In this document: in pieces, positions 17,004 through 30,491 of the stretch | Position numbering within the stretch: position 1 is the stretch's first letter | Layout of the letters: each line of letters starts with the position of its first letter | From: Flavobacterium sedimenticola | GTDB lineage: Bacteria > Bacteroidota > Bacteroidia > Flavobacteriales > Flavobacteriaceae | Assembly (NCBI RefSeq): GCF_030053345.1 | Contig: NZ_JASGBP010000006.1 | Coordinates: 1-64,000 of the forward strand | DNA: 64,000 nt | Direction: 5' to 3' | The notes under the pieces: generated by a model | What the model was told of the DNA's origin: nothing | Databases searched by the model: none | The model's input: only the letters and a program-made list of their open reading frames with translations | Position numbers and translations under genes: made by a program

Positions 17004-19199
17004 TTACTTCATAAAACCGCCACCCGATTGGTTTTTCTCAATGTTGATTTCGGTGTTTTCTTTTTTCAAAGACAAATCTCCAAAATTATAGGTCAACGAT
17101 ATTCGGAAGGTTCTGGTGTCCTGTTTTTGGTAAAACTTAGTTTCCAAATTGGTCGAAGAAACCAAAGCATTTACCTCGTTTTTATTGAACACATCAAAAC
17201 AATGCAAGCCGATTTTCAGGTTTTTGTTCAGGAAGTCTTTGTTGAACGAAATGTCAAACTGCTGAATCGGTTTGGTAATTTGATAGATTTCCCAAGTGCC
17301 TTTCGGTAAAATGAAATACGACATGGAGTTTTTGATATCCCAAGGCAAAATAAATTGTGCTTGTGCCGAGAAGTTCCAAATCGGTTTGTTCTCAAATGAA
17401 AAAGTATAGCCTTCCGTGGTGGTTTTGATGTAATTCACATTTAAGAAAATATAATTCATCTTATCCATGTTATTCATACGCTTTTGAAACTCTTCTTTAC
17501 CTTTAAAGAAGTAATCCAATGGCACCGGAAACGAAGCAAACAAGCTCATGGTTTTGACTTTGTCAAACTGTTGGAAAGTTTGGTTGCTTACCAATTCGCC
17601 CGGTTCGGCAGTGAAAATAAAATTGTTTCTGTCTCGAGCAATGGTATAATTTCCACCGATATTTACAAATTGAAACGCCGTCAGTTTCAACTCGAAGTTG
17701 TCAAAAAACGCCGGATCCAAAAACGGATTTCCTTGCGAGGTGTTGTATTGGTCGAAGTTGGCAAAATTATTCGGGTCCAATACATTGTAATCGGCTTGGA
17801 AAATTTTCTTGGAGTACGAAGCCGACAAGTTCATATTTTCGCTAAACTCATACAAAGCACTCGCATTCGGGAAAAAATTTGAGTTCGTAAAGTTGACTTT
17901 GGTTTCATTGCCTTCCTGAATGGCCAAACGATCTACTTTATAATCTTCAAAACGCAAACCGGCGGTCAAACTCAATTTTTTGAATTTTTTTCGCGCTTCT
18001 ACATAAAAAGCCAAGTTGGTTTCATCGTAATCAAAATCGATGACACTGTTTACGGGGGAATTCAAATTGTAAATACCTTTGTCTTCTACTTTGATATAAT
18101 TGAATTTTCCACCCGTATTTAACGAGAAATCCAACTTTTTAAACGGAATGGTAAAATCATATTTCAAATAATAATTAGCCAAATTAAAGTCGATTTTTCC
18201 ATTATAGTAGGTGGCATCGCCATTGTTTTGTCCGACAGAAGTCGTGTTGGGCGTGCGATTAAAGAAGTTGCTGTAAGCCGTGACATCAAAGGCTCTGCCT
18301 AAGGTGTCGAGTTTTGTTTTGTATTGCAAACTCAGTTCGTTTACACTATTTTTCATTTTCGATAAACCATTGTTGTAAAAATCAATTCCGGTTCCGGCCG
18401 TACGGGCTTTGCTGGTAATGCGATCGTTGCCCAAATTCAAATTATAGTTGAATAAAAGATTCGACTTTTCATTGATTTTGTAATTGGTTCCGGTTCGCCA
18501 ATAAAAATTACGATTGGTGAATTGTGCAAAATTCTTTTGAAACAAATGTTCATCCGGATCAAAAGAGGTAAAGGTTTGATCATTATTGTTTTTGCTTTCG
18601 CTGTCGATGTAGTTGTACCCAATCATGGTTTGCCAACTCAAGTCTTTCACCTTTCCGTTTAATAAAATTTGCGGACTCGGTTTTTGGTATTCATTAAAAT
18701 TGTAATTGATGTTAAAACTGGCGTTAATGCCTTTTTTACGTTTACTGCTGGTTACGATATTGATGATGGAACCGCTGGCATCGGCATCAAAAGAAGCGCC
18801 GGGATTGTAAATGAGTTCCACTTTCTCAATGGCGTTGGCCGGTAAAGTAGCCAAGTAGTTTTGCAAATCATTTCCGCTCAAGGAACTCGGAGCGCCATCA
18901 ATATAAATAGTAACGCCTTTACTGTTTAAAGTAATGGTTCCGGTGGGCGAGGTAATTACGCCGGGAATTTTTTTTACGGCTTCCAAACTACTGCCACTGT
19001 TGAGCATGGCATTGTCGCGCACACTAATGGTGGTTTTGTCGGATTCGACTTTAAGGTACTGTTTTTTGTTGCCGTAAACAGTAACTTCTTTTAATTCGTT
19101 GGGGTTTTCGGAAGCTTTGTTTTCGTCTGTTTTCGGTGCTTCCTGTGCAAAAAGCATACTCGTAAAGAGCAAGCATAAGGTAATGCTTAGTGATTTCAT
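17004..19199 (-). CDS. TonB-dependent receptor-like outer-membrane beta-barrel protein
   Basis: The start at 19199 (MKSLSITLCLLFTSMLFAQ) gives a signal peptide; an upstream start would put 18 residues before it. The 731-residue protein has a plug-like domain at about 40-140 (VTVYGNKKQYLKVESDKTT, IYIDGAPSSLSGNDLQNYL, VELIYNPGASFDADASGSI) followed by a large barrel, the layout of the PF14905 outer-membrane beta-barrel family. It ends in NQSGGGFMK, without the usual terminal aromatic residue. The substrate is unknown, and no SusD or iron-uptake gene is adjacent. Confidence 0.88.
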   Translation of the reverse strand: MKSLSITLCLLFTSMLFAQEAPKTDENKASENPNELKEVTVYGNKKQYLKVESDKTTISVRDNAMLNSGSSLEAVKKIPGVITSPTGTITLNSKGVTIYIDGAPSSLSGNDLQNYLATLPANAIEKVELIYNPGASFDADASGSIINIVTSSKRKKGINASFNINYNFNEYQKPSPQILLNGKVKDLSWQTMIGYNYIDSESKNNNDQTFTSFDPDEHLFQKNFAQFTNRNFYWRTGTNYKINEKSNLLFNYNLNLGNDRITSKARTAGTGIDFYNNGLSKMKNSVNELSLQYKTKLDTLGRAFDVTAYSNFFNRTPNTTSVGQNNGDATYYNGKIDFNLANYYLKYDFTIPFKKLDFSLNTGGKFNYIKVEDKGIYNLNSPVNSVIDFDYDETNLAFYVEARKKFKKLSLTAGLRFEDYKVDRLAIQEGNETKVNFTNSNFFPNASALYEFSENMNLSASYSKKIFQADYNVLDPNNFANFDQYNTSQGNPFLDPAFFDNFELKLTAFQFVNIGGNYTIARDRNNFIFTAEPGELVSNQTFQQFDKVKTMSLFASFPVPLDYFFKGKEEFQKRMNNMDKMNYIFLNVNYIKTTTEGYTFSFENKPIWNFSAQAQFILPWDIKNSMSYFILPKGTWEIYQITKPIQQFDISFNKDFLNKNLKIGLHCFDVFNKNEVNALVSSTNLETKFYQKQDTRTFRISLTYNFGDLSLKKENTEINIEKNQSGGGFMK

Positions 19200-19276
19200 T
19201 GGTGATTGATTGTTTGATTGATGATTGTCATGTAAGACTTTCGGAACAACCAAATGTTACACCATCAATGAAATTT

Positions 19277-19421: not shown

Positions 19422-20954
19422 TTACAGTTTGGTATTTATATTTTGTTGCATTTGCAGCAATTGTTCTAAATAATCGCGTTGATTGGACAATCTCGGAATT
19501 TTGTGTTGTCCGCCGAGTTTGTTGTTTTCTTTGAGCCAATCGTAAAATAAATTTTCTCGGGCGACGTTAATTTTGAGTTCATTGAGCGTCATATTGTTGT
19601 AGCGTTTCGCCTCATAATCGGAATTGACCGATTGGATATTTTCGTCCAATGTTTTTTGAAATAAAGTTATGCTTTCCGGACGCTTCTTGAATTCGATCAT
19701 CCATTCGTGGGCGCCTTTTTCTTTACCGTCCATAAAAATCGGCGCTACGGTATAATCAATGACTTCACAATTCAATGCCGAACAAGTTTTCGCAATGGCG
19801 GTATCGGTGTTTTCAATCATTAATTCCTCACCAAAAACATTAATATGGTGTTTGGTTCGGCCGGAAACGCGAATGCGATACGGACTCAAAGATGTAAACC
19901 GCACGGTATCGCCTATCATATAACGCCATAAGCCGGAGTTGGTGGTAATGACCATGGCGTAATTTTTAAACAATTCCACTTCCGACAAACGCACTATTTT
20001 TTGATTTGGCGTCCCAAATGTATCCATCGGAATAAACTCATAGAAAATCCCGTAATCCAACATTAACAATAAGTCGTTGGAATAATTCAAGTCCTGAATA
20101 GCGAAGAATCCTTCCGAAGCATTGTAAATTTCATAATATTTGAAATCGGATTTCGGCAAAATCTTTTTGTACTGTTCGCGATAGGGTTCAAAACTTACGC
20201 CACCGTGAAAATACACTTCTAAATTCGGCCATAAGTCAAATAGGTTTTCTTTACCGGTTTCGGTTAAAATTCGGTTCAACAAAACCAACATCCACGAAGG
20301 CACGCCGGCAAAACTGGTCACGTTTTCGGTTTTAGTTTCGTTGATAATCGCCGTGAGTTTGCTTTCCCATTCGCTCATCAGTGAGACCTTGTTGCTGGGT
20401 GTACTGCTGAATTCGGCCCACATCGGCATGTTTTCGATTAGAATGGCCGACAAATCGCCGAAGAACGTATTGTTGTTTTCGTATATCTGCGAACTGCCGC
20501 CCAGACGCAAACTTTTGCCCAAAAACATCTCCGAATTCTCGTTGTTGTTCAAATACATGCACAACAAATCCTTACTGGCTTTGTAGTGACAGTCTTCCAG
20601 CGCTTCGCTGCTCACCGGAATGAACTTGCTCTTGGCATTGGTAGTACCGCTCGATTTGGCAAACCATTTGATGGGTGTGTTCCAAAAAATATTCTGATAG
20701 CCTTTGCGCGTTTCCTCAATCATCGGTTCTAAATCCTCGTAGGAAGAAACCGGAATGCGCTCGGCAAAAGTTTCGTAGGATTTGATACTCTCAAAATCGT
20801 ACTTTTTCCCGATAACTGTTTCGTCGCAATTCCGAATCAAATTCATCAGCAACTCTTGTTGCACTTCATTCGGATATTTTAAAAACAACTCAATTTGATG
20901 AATGCGTTGTTTTAAAACCCAGGAAGCGATAGAATTAATAATCGGAAACGGCAT
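19422..20954 (-). CDS. GH3 auxin-responsive promoter family protein
   Basis: A 510-residue protein of the GH3 family of acyl-adenylating enzymes (ANL fold). In plants these conjugate amino acids to auxin or jasmonate; the bacterial substrates are unknown. The N-terminal KSSGTTNAKSKFIPVSSE loop is the nucleotide-binding motif, followed by YNASEGFFAIQD and YRIRVSGRTKHHINVFGE, the typical hinge region. No signal peptide is present. It is probably co-transcribed with the small lipoprotein immediately downstream. Assignment to family is firm; the reaction is not. Confidence 0.9.
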   Translation of the reverse strand: MPFPIINSIASWVLKQRIHQIELFLKYPNEVQQELLMNLIRNCDETVIGKKYDFESIKSYETFAERIPVSSYEDLEPMIEETRKGYQNIFWNTPIKWFAKSSGTTNAKSKFIPVSSEALEDCHYKASKDLLCMYLNNNENSEMFLGKSLRLGGSSQIYENNNTFFGDLSAILIENMPMWAEFSSTPSNKVSLMSEWESKLTAIINETKTENVTSFAGVPSWMLVLLNRILTETGKENLFDLWPNLEVYFHGGVSFEPYREQYKKILPKSDFKYYEIYNASEGFFAIQDLNYSNDLLLMLDYGIFYEFIPMDTFGTPNQKIVRLSEVELFKNYAMVITTNSGLWRYMIGDTVRFTSLSPYRIRVSGRTKHHINVFGEELMIENTDTAIAKTCSALNCEVIDYTVAPIFMDGKEKGAHEWMIEFKKRPESITLFQKTLDENIQSVNSDYEAKRYNNMTLNELKINVARENLFYDWLKENNKLGGQHKIPRLSNQRDYLEQLLQMQQNINTKL

Positions 20955-21181
20955 GATTTAATTGAGGATTATGAATTGCAAATTAGGCATAATAATCATA
21001 GGCTAAAATAGAAAATAATTCCTAAAGTTGTAGTTTAATCTGAACTATTGCCGCAGGTCATACGAAATTTTAGTTCCTTACGAAAATAAAGCATTCTTAA
21101 CGCCATCAATAGACAAAAATTCAATCTTGAAATTTTTTAATAATAAAATTTGTATAATTGTCATTGATAAAAAAATTAAAA

Positions 21182-22729
21182 ATGAAAAAAGGTTTTCTGG
21201 TTTTATTCTGGTTTTGTTCGCTGATAACTCATTCACAAAGTAATGACTTGGCTTCTATTTCTACGGGAAAGTTTTTAGGTTTTTCTGCGCTTTTCAATGA
21301 AGAGGAAGCGCTTTTCGGATATTTAGCAATTTATTCTAAAGGAAAAGAATCTCCTACTACAGAAAAATTTGAATACGTTTATTTTGATAAAAATTTGAAT
21401 AAGGTTGCCAATAACGATTTTGTTGCTCAAAATTATATTACAAGTTTCAGAACGTATATAAATATAAAAGGAAATATTGAATTGTATCCTGTTGTTGACA
21501 GTGAAAAATATGCCAAGGCCAAAAAACAAACTATTCCAACGGTTAAATTAATTAATCTAAAAGATAATTCAATAAGTGACCTTCCGGTTTTTTCATATGA
21601 GGATGATAAATTGGTTACATTGGATGCCAATTTATCTGAAAAAGATAGAGAAGATTTTTTAAGGAAGTTTTTAAGATCAAATGATTACCTACCCAGGACA
21701 GAGGTGAACTTTCTCAAAGACGAATCTATTTTCATTTTAAAATACAAGCATGATCCATATAAAGGATTGAAATTTGATTACGGTATTATTAAATACGACA
21801 GTAATAAAAATGAATTGTGGCGGTTTGAATTTAATAAGGATAAAAAAGCTAAAATAGATCAAACAATTGATATTATATATTTTGATTCTGAGAATATTTA
21901 CTTGACGGAAAAGACAACAGTAAAAAAAGATGTCACATTTAAGTTGATAAAAATTAACTTAAAAACCGGTTTGAAAGAGATAGAAGTGCCAATCACTAAT
22001 TATTCTGAACATTCCATAAAAAGCTTGAGAATTTTTAACAACAGAGTTGATAACATTTACAATAAAAGAAAGTTTGATGACAAGATAGTATTTGTTGGAC
22101 AAATTATTGAGAGTTTGTATAGCGGAACAGATAAAGGCTGTTTCAGAATGATTATCGATAAAAAAACAAATGAAGTTCAGTTTGATAACTTGTATTATTC
22201 ACAAATACAAGGCTTTATAAATTCCAAAATTCCATCGGCAAACGCTGAAGGATACTGGTTGGTGCCAAGAGATTTTTATTTCTTCCAAGATGGAAGCATT
22301 GGGTTTATGTTTGAAAAGTTCAAAGGAGGAGGTGTTTCTGTGATGGGTATTGGAGGAAAGATTAAAACAGCAGACTTGGTCTATGTGGAGACGAATGAAA
22401 GCTTTGTGCCGAAGACAGCCAAAGTTTTTGAAAAGGATATTACTAAAGGCTTCACAAATTCAGATTATTTATTCTCACAGTATGGAAAAGAAATAGATGA
22501 TGTGGTCTTTTTTTACAAAGACTTTCAGAAAGATTCAGACGGGGAAAAGAATTGGAATTTATATATTAATACCCTTAGATCAGGAGTTATCAATAGTGAA
22601 AAAATTCCGATTTCCTCCAAAACAAATACAATCCTTCCTTATGTGGCCAAGAATGGTTATGTTCTTTTGAGGGAATTTAATAAGGACAATAAATACAATG
22701 CTATTCGGTTGGAAAAACTCAATAATTAG
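21182..22729 (+). CDS. Uncharacterised secreted protein, tandem paralogue 1
   Basis: The ATG at 21182 (MKKGFLVLFWFCSLITHSQS) is preferred over a TTG eight codons upstream. The 515-residue product has a signal peptide and no transmembrane segment or lipobox, so it is probably periplasmic or surface-exposed. I do not recognise a catalytic motif. Repeated strand-rich segments with aromatic-aspartate turns (FEYVYFDKNLNKVANNDF, KNWNLYINTL) hint at a beta-propeller-like fold. The next gene is a clear paralogue, roughly half identical at both ends (EKIPISSKTNT versus EKIPISSKENT). The DNA is visibly more AT-rich than the genes on both sides. Confidence 0.78.
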   Translation: MKKGFLVLFWFCSLITHSQSNDLASISTGKFLGFSALFNEEEALFGYLAIYSKGKESPTTEKFEYVYFDKNLNKVANNDFVAQNYITSFRTYINIKGNIELYPVVDSEKYAKAKKQTIPTVKLINLKDNSISDLPVFSYEDDKLVTLDANLSEKDREDFLRKFLRSNDYLPRTEVNFLKDESIFILKYKHDPYKGLKFDYGIIKYDSNKNELWRFEFNKDKKAKIDQTIDIIYFDSENIYLTEKTTVKKDVTFKLIKINLKTGLKEIEVPITNYSEHSIKSLRIFNNRVDNIYNKRKFDDKIVFVGQIIESLYSGTDKGCFRMIIDKKTNEVQFDNLYYSQIQGFINSKIPSANAEGYWLVPRDFYFFQDGSIGFMFEKFKGGGVSVMGIGGKIKTADLVYVETNESFVPKTAKVFEKDITKGFTNSDYLFSQYGKEIDDVVFFYKDFQKDSDGEKNWNLYINTLRSGVINSEKIPISSKTNTILPYVAKNGYVLLREFNKDNKYNAIRLEKLNN

Positions 22730-22820
22730 AGTTCAGCTTGTAAAAATCTGACACGTCAAATAATTTAGGCATATTTCGTCCATAGACATAGTGATAATTT
22801 TAAAATATTAAAGTTTCTAC

Positions 22821-24365
22821 ATGAAAAAAGTTTACGTTTTCCTTTTGCTGATTTTAAGCACCATTAATTATGGTCAAAACAAAGATTTGGCGTCGTTGTC
22901 TAACGGGTCACTTATCAACTTCAGTCCGCTGTATAATGAAAATGAGCAACTATTTGGTTATATAGTTTTGTTTGGTAAAGGAAAAATATCAGACGTAGAA
23001 CAAAAATTTGAATTTGTTTTCTTGGACAAGAATCTCAATAAAGTTGCAAACAAAGATTTTGAGGCTGAAATTTCCGTTTATAATTACAAGTTTGGGGTAA
23101 ACAATAAAAATCAAATTATTTTATATCCTGATTACAAAGATTTTTTTTCCTCAAAAAAAGAGAGGGATAGAACCATAATCGCGAAGGAGCGTTTGATTGA
23201 TTTAAAGAGCAATACAGTAACCATCTTAAATAACTATTGTTACACTGACAAACAAATTGTAGTATGTAATGAAACAACAACAGTTGGAGAAAAAAAACAA
23301 GCAGCCAAAGATTTGTCTAAAGATTTGGGGTATGCTTATTACTCAAGGGTAGAACAATTGGAGGATGATTCTTTTTTAGTGCATGAAACTAGTTCAAAGA
23401 ATAAGGGCTTTTACTTTGAAAATAAATACACGCTTTTTAGTCCTGAAAAGAAAGTAATGTGGACATATGAATTACCTAAAGACATCAAGAAAGACGACAG
23501 GGTTTACATTGAGACGATATATTTTGATAAAGAATATTGGAATTTCATAGAAACTAATATTCATAAAGACAAAGCAACATTCAAGTTTGTCCGCATTAAT
23601 TTAAAAACTGGTCAAAAACTAATAGAGGAGTATTTACCCGAATCTAAAAACAGGAGTTATTATAGTTTGTTCAGATTTGGAGGACAAAAAGGCGGTATAT
23701 ACAATAAAAAGGACTTTGATGATAAACTTATCATTATGGGGATTTTAATTGATAGTGAAGAAAAGCAAAACCGGATAGGCTTTTACAAAGTAGAAGTAGA
23801 CAAAATAAAAAATAAAATTTCAATAGTTGATATGCCATTTACAGACGCTAAGTCATTTTTACCTAAAATAAATGAAAAGGGTGTTGTTGAAAATGGTTAT
23901 AAGCTTCAGATTCGCGATCTTTTTATCTTAAAAAACGGCGAAGTTGGATTGTTGTTTGAAAAGTTCAAATACAGCTATATTCCCATGGCAGGAAGCATTC
24001 CAAAAGCCACCGATTTAATTTGCTTTTTAGCCGATGAAAAATTTAAACTCAAAGAGGTTAAGACCTTTGAGAAAGATAAGTCATTAGCGGATATTGGAGA
24101 TTATTTGTATTCATATAACATTAACGACGATAGCGGCGTTGTTTTTTATTACAAGGACAAACAAAAAAATGAAGAAGGAGATAAAAACTGGAATTTATAT
24201 ATTTCGGTTTATAAAAACGGCAAATTTTCACAAGAGAAAATTCCGATTTCCTCAAAAGAGAATACCATATTTCCATACATAGCTAAAGAGGGTTACATTC
24301 TTTTAAGAGAATACAACAAGAACTCAAAATACAATGGTATTCGATTGGAAAGATTGAATTTTTAA
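22821..24365 (+). CDS. Uncharacterised secreted protein, tandem paralogue 2
   Basis: A 514-residue protein with signal peptide MKKVYVFLLLILSTINYGQ. It aligns end to end with the preceding gene (NKDLASLSNGSLINFSPLYN, FEFVFLDKNLNKVANKDF, YILLREYNKNSKYNGIRLE), so the pair arose by duplication. The start lies 91 bases after the first copy's stop. Its stop overlaps the convergent M48 protease gene by four bases, leaving no room for a terminator. Function is unknown, and no metal or catalytic triad motif is apparent. Confidence 0.8.
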   Translation: MKKVYVFLLLILSTINYGQNKDLASLSNGSLINFSPLYNENEQLFGYIVLFGKGKISDVEQKFEFVFLDKNLNKVANKDFEAEISVYNYKFGVNNKNQIILYPDYKDFFSSKKERDRTIIAKERLIDLKSNTVTILNNYCYTDKQIVVCNETTTVGEKKQAAKDLSKDLGYAYYSRVEQLEDDSFLVHETSSKNKGFYFENKYTLFSPEKKVMWTYELPKDIKKDDRVYIETIYFDKEYWNFIETNIHKDKATFKFVRINLKTGQKLIEEYLPESKNRSYYSLFRFGGQKGGIYNKKDFDDKLIIMGILIDSEEKQNRIGFYKVEVDKIKNKISIVDMPFTDAKSFLPKINEKGVVENGYKLQIRDLFILKNGEVGLLFEKFKYSYIPMAGSIPKATDLICFLADEKFKLKEVKTFEKDKSLADIGDYLYSYNINDDSGVVFYYKDKQKNEEGDKNWNLYISVYKNGKFSQEKIPISSKENTIFPYIAKEGYILLREYNKNSKYNGIRLERLNF

Positions 24366-25687
24366 TGATTCTCCGACGAATAAAAATCAGCAATTTTTTT
24401 TATTTCATCTAAATTTAAGTTCCACATAAAACTCAGAAATAGCTGGTAACTTTCAGATTGTTCTTGAGGCGAAACTCTGTCCAAGTATCGGTTTAGGGTA
24501 TAATTCTTTCGTGCTTCATAAATCTTAGTAAAAGATTTTCCCAGCCATTCGCTAAAAAAGGCAGTATTAACTTTGTCCCTTTCCAAGTACAGTAGTGCTG
24601 CATAAATTGAAAGACCATAGTCTTCATTGAAATATAAGTTCGGGACAGTTTCCAAGTAGGCAATTTTAGCTAGTTTTTTATATAATTCCGGATTCGGATT
24701 ATAGGCTTTGGTTTCCGATTTTACCTCCGGAAATAACGATAAAATTCGGGCTATTCTGGTTTCTGTTTCAGGATGGGAAGCAATCGAATCGGTGTCGATT
24801 TTCTCTGTAAATTTAGAATAATCATAACTTGAAAAATCTTCTTTTTGAAGCCATTTTTCATTAAAAGGTTGGGTGGCTAAATCAAAGTACTTTTTATATA
24901 CGGTTTCAGATAACCCAGCCGGCTTTATCGAATCATATCGTTGCATCAACTTCATTGCAGATAAATATTCGCTCTTAGAGTAATTTGTTTTTCTGTATAA
25001 AACATAACCTAATGAGTCGGCTTGCAATTCTTGTTGTTTGGCTCTGTTCCCTTTATCATAAAGGCGTTCGCGAAAGAGCGTCAAAGCTTTATCACTAACG
25101 CTGTATTTTTCTTTTTTCAGTTCGGATATTCGTCTTTTTGTATTTTTCTCTTCTAAAAAGTCTCTTTCTTTCTTTTTTAAGCTATGCTCCAGTACTTTGT
25201 GGGCAATTTCATGAGACAAAACACCCGCAAATTGGTCTTCGTTGTCTAACCAATAAAAAAGACCAAGATTCAAAACAAAAGTTCCGTCGGTTATACAAAA
25301 AGCATTCAGAGAGTGACTCTTAGAAATTAGAATTTTAAATTTTGTGTCTTTAAGTTCAGGATTTCCTTTTTTGATTTCTTCTAAAACGTTTGAAGCGAAT
25401 TTGGTTATTTCGTCTTCGAAAATGAAGTTTCCTTTTTTGATTTGCGCTCCAAATTCCGTTGAAAACTCGGTATAAGAGTTGGAAATGTATTTGGCGAGCT
25501 TAGCATCGTATTTCGATTTTATCTCTTGGATATACCTTTCGTTGTCCGCTTTAAATTCTTTAAGAAAGGAATCCCTCTTGTCATTTTTTGTGGTGTCAAT
25601 AGGAGTGTATTTTTGCGAGTGCAAATTATATGACCAGAATACCAGAGTAATCAGAAGAAATATTATTTGGTGCTTTTTTTTAGTCAT
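24362..25687 (-). CDS. M48 family metalloprotease (secreted)
   Basis: The start at 25687 (MTKKKHQIIFLLITLVFWSY) gives a signal peptide and 441 residues; an upstream ATG would prefix 18 residues. The zinc motif HEIAH lies at 159-163 (VLSHEIAHKVLEHS), and the third ligand is probably E220 in QELQADSLGY, the ExxxD arrangement of M48 (BepA/HtpX/Ste24) peptidases. BepA-type members work in periplasmic outer-membrane quality control; there are no membrane helices here. It is convergent with the paralogue pair, overlapping it by four bases. It shares the AT-rich composition, perhaps because the three genes arrived or evolved together. Confidence 0.86.
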   Translation of the reverse strand: MTKKKHQIIFLLITLVFWSYNLHSQKYTPIDTTKNDKRDSFLKEFKADNERYIQEIKSKYDAKLAKYISNSYTEFSTEFGAQIKKGNFIFEDEITKFASNVLEEIKKGNPELKDTKFKILISKSHSLNAFCITDGTFVLNLGLFYWLDNEDQFAGVLSHEIAHKVLEHSLKKKERDFLEEKNTKRRISELKKEKYSVSDKALTLFRERLYDKGNRAKQQELQADSLGYVLYRKTNYSKSEYLSAMKLMQRYDSIKPAGLSETVYKKYFDLATQPFNEKWLQKEDFSSYDYSKFTEKIDTDSIASHPETETRIARILSLFPEVKSETKAYNPNPELYKKLAKIAYLETVPNLYFNEDYGLSIYAALLYLERDKVNTAFFSEWLGKSFTKIYEARKNYTLNRYLDRVSPQEQSESYQLFLSFMWNLNLDEIKKIADFYSSENH

Positions 25688-25744
25688 TCTACAAAACATT
25701 AATATTTTTACAATCAATTCAAAAATAATATTTTTTTCCATCCC

Positions 25745-26539
25745 ATGACTTACGAAGGCGTATTAACCAAAATGCAAACCGAATTCTCCAACCCAATTCA
25801 ATATTATTTGGTGTTTGAGAATAGTTTTTTAAGCTTGAATCAGCTGTTAGACAAATCGTTGGAAATCTCTTTTCAAGGCTATCAATGTTTGAATTGCGGT
25901 AAAAAGAAAAAGATTTTCCGCCAGGGATTTTGCTACGATTGCTTTATGAGTTCTGCGGCGGCAGGCGACTGGATTATGAAACCCGAATTGAGTACCGCGC
26001 ATTTAGACATCGAAGACCGCGATTTAGAGTATGAGAAGAAAGTCCAGTTGCAACCGCATATTGTGTATTTGGCCTTGTCGAGCGAAGTGAAAGTGGGTGT
26101 CACCCGCAAAACCCAAGTGCCCACACGTTGGATTGACCAAGGCGCGGTGCAGGCCGTTCCGATAGTAGAAGTACCGAATCGCTATTTGGCGGGGATTACC
26201 GAAGTGGCGCTCAAAAATTATTATGCCGATAAAACCAATTGGCAAAAAATGCTCAAAAACGAAGTGCCACAAATTGATTTAATGGCCGAACGATTACAAT
26301 TGGAAAACCGTATTCCAACCGAAGTACGAGAATTTTTTCATCCCAACCAAGAAGATTTGTATGAGTTGCACTATCCGGTGCTGCACTACCCAACCAAAGT
26401 CAGCAGTCTCAATTTAGACAAATCGCCCAATTTCTCCGGAAAACTCACCGGTATCAAAGGCCAATACTTACTCTTTGAAGACGGAACGGTTTTTAACGTC
26501 CGAACGTTTGAAGGTTATGTGGTGAGAATCAATATTTAA
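25745..26539 (+). CDS. DUF2797 domain-containing protein
   Basis: A 264-residue cytosolic protein with a cysteine cluster near the N-terminus (CLNCGKKKKI, then FCYDCF) that probably binds zinc. Then comes the DUF2797 core with HIVYLALSSEVKVGVTRKTQ and RWIDQGA, resembling the GIY-YIG nuclease-like fold: a tyrosine-containing strand followed by a VGVTR segment. Whether it cleaves nucleic acid is unknown. It is transcribed away from the M48 gene and ends at a bidirectional terminator. Confidence 0.85.
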   Translation: MTYEGVLTKMQTEFSNPIQYYLVFENSFLSLNQLLDKSLEISFQGYQCLNCGKKKKIFRQGFCYDCFMSSAAAGDWIMKPELSTAHLDIEDRDLEYEKKVQLQPHIVYLALSSEVKVGVTRKTQVPTRWIDQGAVQAVPIVEVPNRYLAGITEVALKNYYADKTNWQKMLKNEVPQIDLMAERLQLENRIPTEVREFFHPNQEDLYELHYPVLHYPTKVSSLNLDKSPNFSGKLTGIKGQYLLFEDGTVFNVRTFEGYVVRINI

Positions 26540-29357: not shown

Positions 29358-30491
29358 ATGAATAAGCAACACCAAGTCATTTTATCGTTGGGTACCAACC
29401 AAGGCAACCGACTCGAAAACATCGAGCGCTGTCTGTCGGATTTGCACAACGAAATAGGAACGATTATCCGAGTTTCCAAATTATACGAAACAGCGTCTTG
29501 GGGATTTGAAAGCGCCAAATTTTACAACTGTGCGGTGGTGATGCACACCCATAAATCGGCGCATCAATTGCTCGAGGAAGTATTGATTTTGGAGGAAGCG
29601 TTGGGGAGAGTTCGAGAAAACACGGAAGGCTATCAGCCCCGAATTATTGATATTGATGTGATTGCGTATGACGAAGAAATTATCGCATCTGAAAAGTTAC
29701 AAGTGCCGCATCCCGAAATGCAAAACCGTTTGTTTGTGTTGTTGCCCATGCGCGATTTAAACCTCGATTGGCGTCATCCCATTTTGCAAAAATACTTACA
29801 CGAATTGTTAGTGCTTTCCGAAGATAAAAGCAATTGTGTGGTCGTGCAAAATCTCGAAATACCCATTAACACCATCAAACTCGACCATTTTAATTATATC
29901 GCTATTGAGGGGAATATAGGGGCCGGAAAAACCACATTGACCAACAAGTTGGCCGAAGATTTTAACGCCAAAACGGTTTTAGAGCGTTTTGCCGACAACC
30001 CGTTTTTACCGAAATTTTACGAAGATCAAAGTCGGTATGCCTTTCCGTTGGAAATGTCCTTTTTAGCCGACCGCTACCAACAAATTTCCGATGATTTGGC
30101 GCAGTTCGATTTGTTTAAGGATTTCATAGTGGCCGATTACCATATTTTTAAGTCCTTGATTTTTGCAAAAGTGACTTTGGCTGAAGATGAATATCGGTTG
30201 TACAAAACCATGTTTGATATCATTTATAAAGAAATGCCGAAGCCCGATTTGTATATTTATTTGTATCAAAATACAGAACGGCTTTTGGAAAATATCAAAT
30301 TGCGCGGCAGAAGTTACGAGCAGGAAATCCCGGCAGAATACCTCGAACGAATCAATAATGGCTACTTAGATTACATCAAATCGCAAACCAACCTTAATGT
30401 TTTGATTATTGATGTTACTCACAGGGATTTTGTGAACCATCAGGAAGATTATGTGTATGTCTTGAACCAAATCAGGGATAAAATACAATAG
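29358..30491 (+). CDS. folK: Fused HPPK (FolK) and deoxynucleoside kinase
   Basis: A 377-residue two-domain protein. Residues 1-160 are 6-hydroxymethyl-7,8-dihydropterin pyrophosphokinase (LSLGTNQGNRLENIERC, signature YQPRIIDIDVI), which activates pterin for folate synthesis. Residues about 178-377 are a deoxynucleoside kinase of the dCK/dGK type with Walker A GNIGAGKTT, the ERFADNPFL segment and the lid LRGRSYEQEIP. The domains serve separate pathways, folate and nucleotide salvage, but the fusion is known in Bacteroidota. No frameshift or internal stop divides them. It is preceded by about 180 bases without a recognisable gene. Confidence 0.93.
   Translation: MNKQHQVILSLGTNQGNRLENIERCLSDLHNEIGTIIRVSKLYETASWGFESAKFYNCAVVMHTHKSAHQLLEEVLILEEALGRVRENTEGYQPRIIDIDVIAYDEEIIASEKLQVPHPEMQNRLFVLLPMRDLNLDWRHPILQKYLHELLVLSEDKSNCVVVQNLEIPINTIKLDHFNYIAIEGNIGAGKTTLTNKLAEDFNAKTVLERFADNPFLPKFYEDQSRYAFPLEMSFLADRYQQISDDLAQFDLFKDFIVADYHIFKSLIFAKVTLAEDEYRLYKTMFDIIYKEMPKPDLYIYLYQNTERLLENIKLRGRSYEQEIPAEYLERINNGYLDYIKSQTNLNVLIIDVTHRDFVNHQEDYVYVLNQIRDKIQ

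Follow-up and report, generated by a model that had tools for sequence, protein, structure and literature searches.

An exported M48 protease gene paired with predicted beta-propeller genes of the DUF6770 family in Flavobacterium and other Bacteroidota

Why do two tandem genes for exported paralogues face an exported metalloprotease gene in an AT-rich patch of a Flavobacterium genome, and do the three belong together? The question is raised by a stretch of 64,000 nucleotides from Flavobacterium sedimenticola (assembly GCF_030053345.1, contig NZ_JASGBP010000006.1, positions 1–64,000), referred to here as the window. Two of the genes, P0001 and P0002, encode proteins related to the family DUF6770 (the propellers), and the third, P0003, encodes an M48 protease. 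Comparison across genomes makes us highly confident that protease and propeller form a pair, and very probably the two cooperate in the cell envelope. The three genes are:

21182–22729, + strand: P0001, exported DUF6770-related protein of 515 residues, first tandem paralogue (open reading frame and profile match)
22821–24365, + strand: P0002, exported DUF6770-related protein of 514 residues, second tandem paralogue, predicted beta-propeller, probably with eight blades
24362–25687, − strand: P0003, exported M48 metalloprotease of 441 residues, convergent with P0002

An earlier note, made from the sequence alone, had described two exported paralogues of 515 residues converging on the protease gene with a four-base overlap. 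The pair and the overlap are confirmed, with the stop regions of P0002 and P0003 sharing positions 24362–24365, whereas the lengths are 515 and 514 residues. The length of P0003 is counted from the start at 25687, and an alternative in-frame ATG lies at 25741. P0001 and P0002 are 38% identical over the 523 columns of a full-length pairwise alignment. As the same note had observed, all three genes are AT-richer than their surroundings, with G+C contents (GC) of 0.301, 0.306 and 0.333 respectively, compared to a median of 0.406 and a minimum of 0.368 for 13 flanking open reading frames of at least 150 residues. The sliding GC profile of the window dips at 21–26 kb.

By sequence, P0001 and P0002 belong with the uncharacterised Pfam family DUF6770 (PF20559), for which Pfam states no function; the earlier view that the pair has no known domain is therefore not quite right. 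In a single-protein search, P0001 and P0002 score 26.8 and 24.2 bits, just below the Pfam cut-off of 27, and they reach 29.3 and 27.1 bits, above it, when scores are summed over all matched pieces of each frame. The best match in both is to the C-terminal part of the model. One profile unites the two proteins with 34 others from 32 other loci, all alignable over their length, and most of these loci exceed the Pfam cut-off. Additionally, 47 of the 57 propeller rows of a second alignment (A4) match DUF6770 at E ≤ 0.001.

Pairing and history of the protease and propeller genes

The genus sample comprised 299 genomes and the Bacteroidota sample 395, each taken as the same sample for the DUF6770 and M48 profile searches. 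DUF6770 matches were found in 34 of the genus genomes, two of which (G103 and G113) have weak matches and no module. Full-length relatives of P0003 (E < 1e-30) were found as 33 copies in 32 genomes, and the next matches are short M48 proteins at 3e-11. The 32 genomes with a full-length M48 protein are the same 32 that carry a full-length DUF6770 protein, and the two genes are adjacent in all 33 copies. No full-length M48 gene of the module type stands without a propeller among the 299 genomes. The probability of this overlap by chance, ignoring kinship, is near 1e-43. The genes are thus clearly found together in relatives, and the proposal that they form a species-variable accessory module is strongly supported by this distribution and by the insertion of the module between the GH3 and DUF2797 genes (see below).

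The pairing extends beyond the genus. At the level of the order, 25 of 296 genomes match our own propeller profile (A1). Surroundings were fetched for 18 of these besides the window's own, leaving out G327, G408, G432, G496, G564 and G463; in family f5, M48 adjoins DUF6770 in all 14 fetched loci, 13 of them convergent and one (L167) on the same strand. According to the profile searches, M48 also stands beside DUF6770 in G327. In the Bacteroidota sample, 10 genomes contain a full-length M48 protein, and all 10 have a DUF6770 match; the DUF6770 proteins of G344 and G373 are below the Pfam cut-off, yet full-length with our own profile. In this sample G454 and G895 show weak DUF6770 matches only, and four genomes show only partial M48 matches, with E up to 1e-20. 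Six genomes were not counted as carrying modules, namely G103, G113, G454 and G895 (below the Pfam cut-off) and G367 and G463 (weak in the A1 search); all of these except G463 are recorded with partial M48 matches only.

A search of named loci, restricted to the best 80 of 161 confirmed loci and mostly from Chryseobacterium, placed M48 within 1 kb of DUF6770 in 78 of the 80, with L234 counted as linked despite a DUF6770 gene in two frames. In the genus Chryseobacterium (that of G396), DUF6770 occurs in 60 of 98 genomes.

Some of the named loci are unusual. In L234 (Chryseobacterium gregarium), two open frames of 67 and 418 residues cover DUF6770 beside an intact M48 frame, which may reflect gene breakage or a sequencing error. 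L225, on a contig filed as Limnohabitans, which we take to be a betaproteobacterial name, has a Chryseobacterium-type module and is probably a binning error. The metagenome bin Pmx449_bin11 (L235, L239 and L240) contains three DUF6770 genes on three contigs, with one M48 gene seen.

The copy number of the two components differs. The propeller is duplicated beside one protease in the window, G280, G269, G344, G540, L189, L192, L208 and L251, and no module with two proteases was seen in the loci examined. G218 contains two complete modules.

Trees were built for 66 proteases and 76 propellers from the Flavobacterium loci, seven of the 20 loci L154–L173 and 29 of the 80 named loci, using only proteins of more than 380 residues. 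The M48 tree contains two large groups. Group I (32 rows) comprises the window, its sister G295, G095, Chryseobacterium and its kin, and some marine or other metagenome loci, and is convergent except for L248 and L235. Group II (34 rows) contains most Flavobacterium loci, with M48 followed by DUF6770 on one strand. The propeller tree likewise unites the rows of group I. The relative orientation of the genes requires as few as three changes on the M48 tree, with the genes staying together throughout. Protease and propeller distances are correlated, with r of 0.87 for 59 single-copy loci and 0.88 within group II.

Comparison with other genomes shows that the module of the window is an insertion, with the following extent and flanks:

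21021–25744, no strand: approximate extent of the insertion separating the ancestral GH3 and DUF2797 genes
19422–20954, − strand: GH3-family gene, left flank, outside the module
25745–26539, + strand: DUF2797 gene, right flank, outside the module

The GH3 and DUF2797 genes adjoin each other directly and diverge, with 41 to 299 bp between them, in all 29 other genomes examined, and five of these 29 bear a module elsewhere. The junction survey covered loci for 30 of the 43 genomes with a match. In G295 the module occupies the same position as in the window and has one propeller. No target-site repeat longer than 8 bases was found at the insertion ends, and only two 8-base matches were present. 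At the same junction in G295, an Amidase_3 gene (L105, 5800–6411) has been added beside the module.

In each of the 33 loci, both module genes have a lower GC than the median of the sequences flanking them, the difference being about 0.06. At third codon positions the GC shift averages only 0.05 and 0.04, but in the window it reaches about 0.16 (propellers) and 0.14 (protease). These values indicate that part of the AT-richness belongs to the proteins themselves, and in the window it also points to a foreign or unadapted segment. Between the window and G295, 10 flanking families have a median identity of 85.5%, compared to 50% for M48 and 41 and 39% for the propellers. The ratio of nonsynonymous to synonymous substitution rates (dN/dS) was estimated for nine chosen of 40 flank-sharing pairs and for 11 chosen Chryseobacterium pairs. 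It ranges from 0.006 to 0.155 for module genes in pairs with computable dS, indicating that the module is maintained; dS is saturated in several pairs, including the window and G295. In the pair L078/L082, flank dS is 0.5–0.95, M48 dS is 2.55 and the propeller is saturated, a contrast more in keeping with a diverged copy having replaced the block than with rapid evolution of the proteins. Scans for promoters and terminators yielded values near chance.

Fold and conservation of the two components

The structure-stage alignments comprised 57 propellers and 45 proteases. The AlphaFold2 model of P0002 (57 sequences; predicted local distance difference test (pLDDT) 87.1, predicted template modelling score (pTM) 0.82) is a nearly all-beta chain. 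The model confidently predicts that P0002 is a beta-propeller, the fold for which the earlier note had suggested a test, with blades of about four antiparallel strands and a ring closed where the two chain ends meet. The strand list of the model indicates that the blades probably number eight. Searches with Foldseek and VIA-align gave top matches that are mostly proteins recognised as beta-propellers, none of them close: bacterial dipeptidyl peptidase 4 (Z 11.0, root-mean-square deviation (rmsd) 10.0, 351 residues) heads the list, a match generic to propellers, and eIF3b has a Z of 10.2 and an rmsd of 5.5. Sequence searches for a solved structure matching the propellers found none.

The blades are not equally conserved, and the conserved ones are contiguous in the predicted ring, such that blades 7, 8 and 1 form one sector:

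22890–23072, + strand: P0002 blade 1, residues 24–84, conserved sector (predicted structure and conservation)
24090–24362, + strand: P0002 blades 7 and 8, residues 424–514, conserved sector, C-terminal strand IRLE(K/R)(L/I)N

Between the paralogues of the window, identities for blades 1 to 8 are 56, 25, 22, 38, 24, 38, 51 and 69%, such that about half identity at both ends, as previously noticed, is borne out by blades 1, 7 and 8 against 22–38% in blades 2–6. The paralogues of Chryseobacterium L189 give 44, 23, 30, 20, 21, 19, 62 and 75%. The same tendency is seen among paralogues and orthologues, with exceptions: blade 6 is 71–75% identical between the paralogues of G280 and of G269, and blade 7 only 21% between the two diverged copies of G218, each from a different module. 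Column conservation in blades 1, 7 and 8 is 0.499 versus 0.359 in blades 2–6 in alignment A1 (p 4e-10) and 0.786 versus 0.593 in A4 (p 6e-17). Blade 7 alone is also conserved (p 2e-4 and 2e-9 in A1 and A4).

P0003 matches Peptidase M48 (PF01435) with 58 bits (cut-off 20.3). Its predicted model (pLDDT 87.9) has BepA as the nearest solved structure (Z 19.1, rmsd 3.5, 198 residues), followed by 3C37 (Z 17.0). Three motifs contain residues that are invariant in all 33 aligned proteases:

25199–25213, − strand: HEIAH zinc-binding motif, residues 159–163 (H159, E160 and H163 invariant)
25016–25030, − strand: third zinc ligand region, E220 to D224 (E220, A223 and D224 invariant)
24755–24775, − strand: HPX4R regulatory plug (H305, P306 and R311 invariant; meaning taken from the available part of PMC7950410)

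In BepA, according to the same partial source, H246 sits on a plug which occupies the active site and is required for regulated function (PMC7950410). Judged from sequence and model, P0003 is thus a predicted BepA-like M48 protein with an intact active site and regulatory plug. Its C-terminal part is helical, with only scattered structural matches resembling tetratricopeptide repeats (TPR), at Z of about 5–6.

Both families carry a glutamine at the end of a putative signal peptide, the cleavage sites being judged by eye: all 36 DUF6770 proteins have Q19, and Q25 is nearly invariant among the 33 module proteases. In P0003, counted from the start at 25687, no lipoprotein cysteine was seen by eye in the first 28 residues, and a glutamine follows the putative signal peptide. 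The rule that most Bacteroidetes substrates of signal peptidase I have a glutamine directly after the signal peptide, as given in the available text of PMC5837995, therefore agrees with both families. Both components carry signal peptides and very probably act in the periplasm or at the outer membrane. Type IX secretion was dismissed, as the sorting domains TIGR04183 and TIGR04131 had no match in P0001–P0003 (E ≤ 1) and none among the 57 A4 propellers (E ≤ 0.001).

Proposed mechanism and alternative explanations

We propose an exported module of two components, a single M48 zinc protease together with at least one DUF6770 beta-propeller. The genome comparison shows the two families to be passed on as one unit. 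The conservation and adjacency of blades 7, 8 and 1 suggest that this sector would dock on the M48 protein, and that the variation of blades 2–6 would suit each propeller to a ligand of the species concerned, in the envelope or outside the cell. Once the propeller is engaged, the plug of the protease would move and targets would be presented; tandem propellers would be alternative recognition subunits for one shared protease. That the constant sector docks M48 and the propeller presents targets to the protease is the explanation we prefer, tentatively, and we rate it somewhat short of probable. We count in its favor the co-occurrence of the two families, with G925 as an unlinked case, their persistence side by side through changes of orientation, the conservation of blades 1, 7 and 8, the invariant catalytic and plug residues, with low dN/dS in unsaturated pairs, and the modules with one protease and two propellers (the window, G280, G269 and several Chryseobacterium). 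The fuller proposal, of an undescribed Bacteroidota envelope protease system in which a plugged M48 enzyme is aimed by exchangeable propellers with a shared 7-8-1 dock and variable blades 2–6, is unlikely. Were the propellers exchangeable, their duplication or transfer would alter what the protease attacks, and a propeller that aims the protease would make the module an exported counterpart of adaptor-guided proteolysis. The strict pairing itself supplies a testable partner for both families in many Chryseobacterium and some Flavobacterium species. As far as the available part of one source goes, the functions of M48 proteases are poorly understood even in E. coli (PMC7950410).

Several observations weigh against recognition by a docked propeller. 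The window's own group is mostly convergent, so the genes there are not one transcription unit, and within this group I the correlation of protease and propeller distances is moderate (r 0.55). The Pfam model is weak for the same group, such that a diverged DUF6770 gene without M48 could be missed; the absence of propellers standing alone is less sure than that of full-length proteases standing alone. L239 and L240, from the same metagenome bin, have DUF6770 at contig ends, with no M48 on the available DNA. G925, the case in which the two genes occur unlinked (see below), is a single draft genome. Finally, closing the ring might by itself explain why blades 8 and 1 are conserved, though blade 7 is conserved too.

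The strongest alternative reverses the roles. M48 would be a dedicated BepA-like maturation or quality-control factor that binds the terminal strands of the unclosed propeller, aids closure and degrades failures, and the propeller would be the working part. We consider this possible but rather doubtful. The structural proximity of the P0003 model to BepA and 3C37 fits it, as does the terminal position of the conserved blades, and BepA serves a beta-barrel client as both a chaperone-like factor and a protease, through its edge strand, as far as the available text of PMC8423444 describes. Moreover, propeller dN/dS is lower than that of the protease in all 11 Chryseobacterium pairs, with the same or higher identity in 10, which makes the protease the less constrained part. 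However, P0003 scores far below the NCBIfam models for BepA (equivalog NF052400; 30.9 bits, cut-off 570) and LoiP (NF052399; 31.2 bits, cut-off 365), and conservation of the terminal blades also fits docking without chaperoning. The earlier suggestion of a protease that acts on the paralogues or controls their quality is possible, and the reverse, with the propeller as recognition partner, fits about as well. A protease in the service of the propeller would amount to an assembly factor of the BepA type, dedicated to its partner and linked to it as a gene.

A propeller dedicated to inhibiting the protease or conferring immunity to it, as in a toxin–antitoxin-like or protease–inhibitor pair, is improbable. 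Strict pairing, patchy distribution and insertion between genes that elsewhere adjoin would suit such a pair, but purifying selection on both genes is strong, pairs with unsaturated dS show nothing resembling an arms race, and the extra tandem copies are propellers only. Furthermore, there was no convincing match to a defence model, and none in the phage and plasmid records or viral contigs searched. A defence system was dismissed on its sole PADLOC match (15.5 bits, P0003 only), and a viral or plasmid origin on the lack of relatives in the viral contigs, plasmids and phages searched.

Least probable, and by our estimate very unlikely, is that the two genes are functionally unrelated and linked merely by travelling on one transferred segment: the module is inserted, differently placed across genomes and seemingly block-replaced in some pairs, but the genes have remained together through the orientation changes, flanks vary widely in Flavobacterium (the commonest other flanking family occurs in at most 8 of 35 loci), and the explanation is already weakened by G925. 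That genome has a DUF6770 gene (33 bits, above the cut-off) without adjacent M48 and a full-length M48 gene of the module type on another contig without adjacent DUF6770, both well inside their contigs. Co-occurrence without linkage argues for dependence and against mere hitchhiking. The Chryseobacterium set says nothing on this point, since its members are closely related and share neighbors in up to 72 of 99 loci.

Known systems and neighboring genes

The components are from known broad families, and the paired system appears to be undescribed within the literature searched. No paper found there names DUF6770, and titles and abstract starts retrieved for M48 with Flavobacterium, Chryseobacterium or beta-propeller contained no M48–propeller pair. 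P0003 shares with BepA (YfgC, the beta-barrel assembly-enhancing M48 protein of E. coli; 6AIT, 6SAR) the M48 core, HEXXH, a Glu third ligand, the HPX4R plug and export. In contrast to BepA, it has no clear TPR domain, a C-terminal helical part of its own and a propeller gene as partner, and the third ligand is separated from the plug His by 84 residues compared to 44 in BepA (numbers from the available part of PMC7950410). 3C37 (Geobacter sulfurreducens Q74D82) has a similar catalytic core fold (25% identity over 193 residues), but is described in that partial source as a stand-alone protease domain only (PMC7950410). LoiP is a lipoprotein according to the name of its model, whereas no lipoprotein cysteine was seen near the start of P0003.

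In dipeptidyl peptidase 4 and other propeller peptidases, a beta-propeller serves a peptidase, in a single chain with a serine hydrolase. Within the same phylum, PorZ has two beta-propellers, binds glycan and acts with the sortase PorU, as far as the available text of PMC8545088 goes. By analogy, a propeller protein working with an enzyme offers a possible precedent for recruitment; PorU, however, is a sortase rather than an M48 protein, and PorZ ends in a type IX C-terminal domain, of which no match was found in P0001–P0003 or the 57 propellers. The closest Flavobacterium case found in the literature is FP0506, an elastase of Flavobacterium psychrophilum, which is a variably present exported metalloprotease with 3C37 as nearest structure (available part of PMC6414381). 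It differs in being shorter than P0003, a predicted lipoprotein of 296 residues with an ExxA motif, encoded after the trp operon, and that part of the source mentions no propeller partner (PMC6414381).

A third partner gene was dismissed, as no flanking family exceeds 8 of the 35 Flavobacterium-set loci. In the Chryseobacterium-rich set (L154–L172 and L174–L253), a class II tRNA synthetase gene, presumably glyS, is present in 72 of 99 loci. The module also lies by or near such a gene in L100, L095, L089, L097, L099, L101 and L103, the gene of L100 matching Pfam tRNA-synt_2b and HGTP_anticodon. G103 resembles an empty site of the tRNA-synthetase-linked copies. This neighbor occurs in both orientation groups, so the linkage may mark an ancestral location rather than a partner. 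Serine hydrolases of PF00144 likewise reach 72 of the 99 loci, but as a grouping that lumps different hydrolases. They border the module in Chryseobacterium and in two marine loci without being the same hydrolase (L156:8642–9799, L249:8110–9213).

Elsewhere in the window, an OMP_b-brl_3 outer-membrane beta-barrel gene at 17004–19253 has no counterpart at the corresponding place in G295. A single gene at 29358–30491 encodes HPPK fused to a deoxynucleoside kinase, and the same family is found at the same place in G295.

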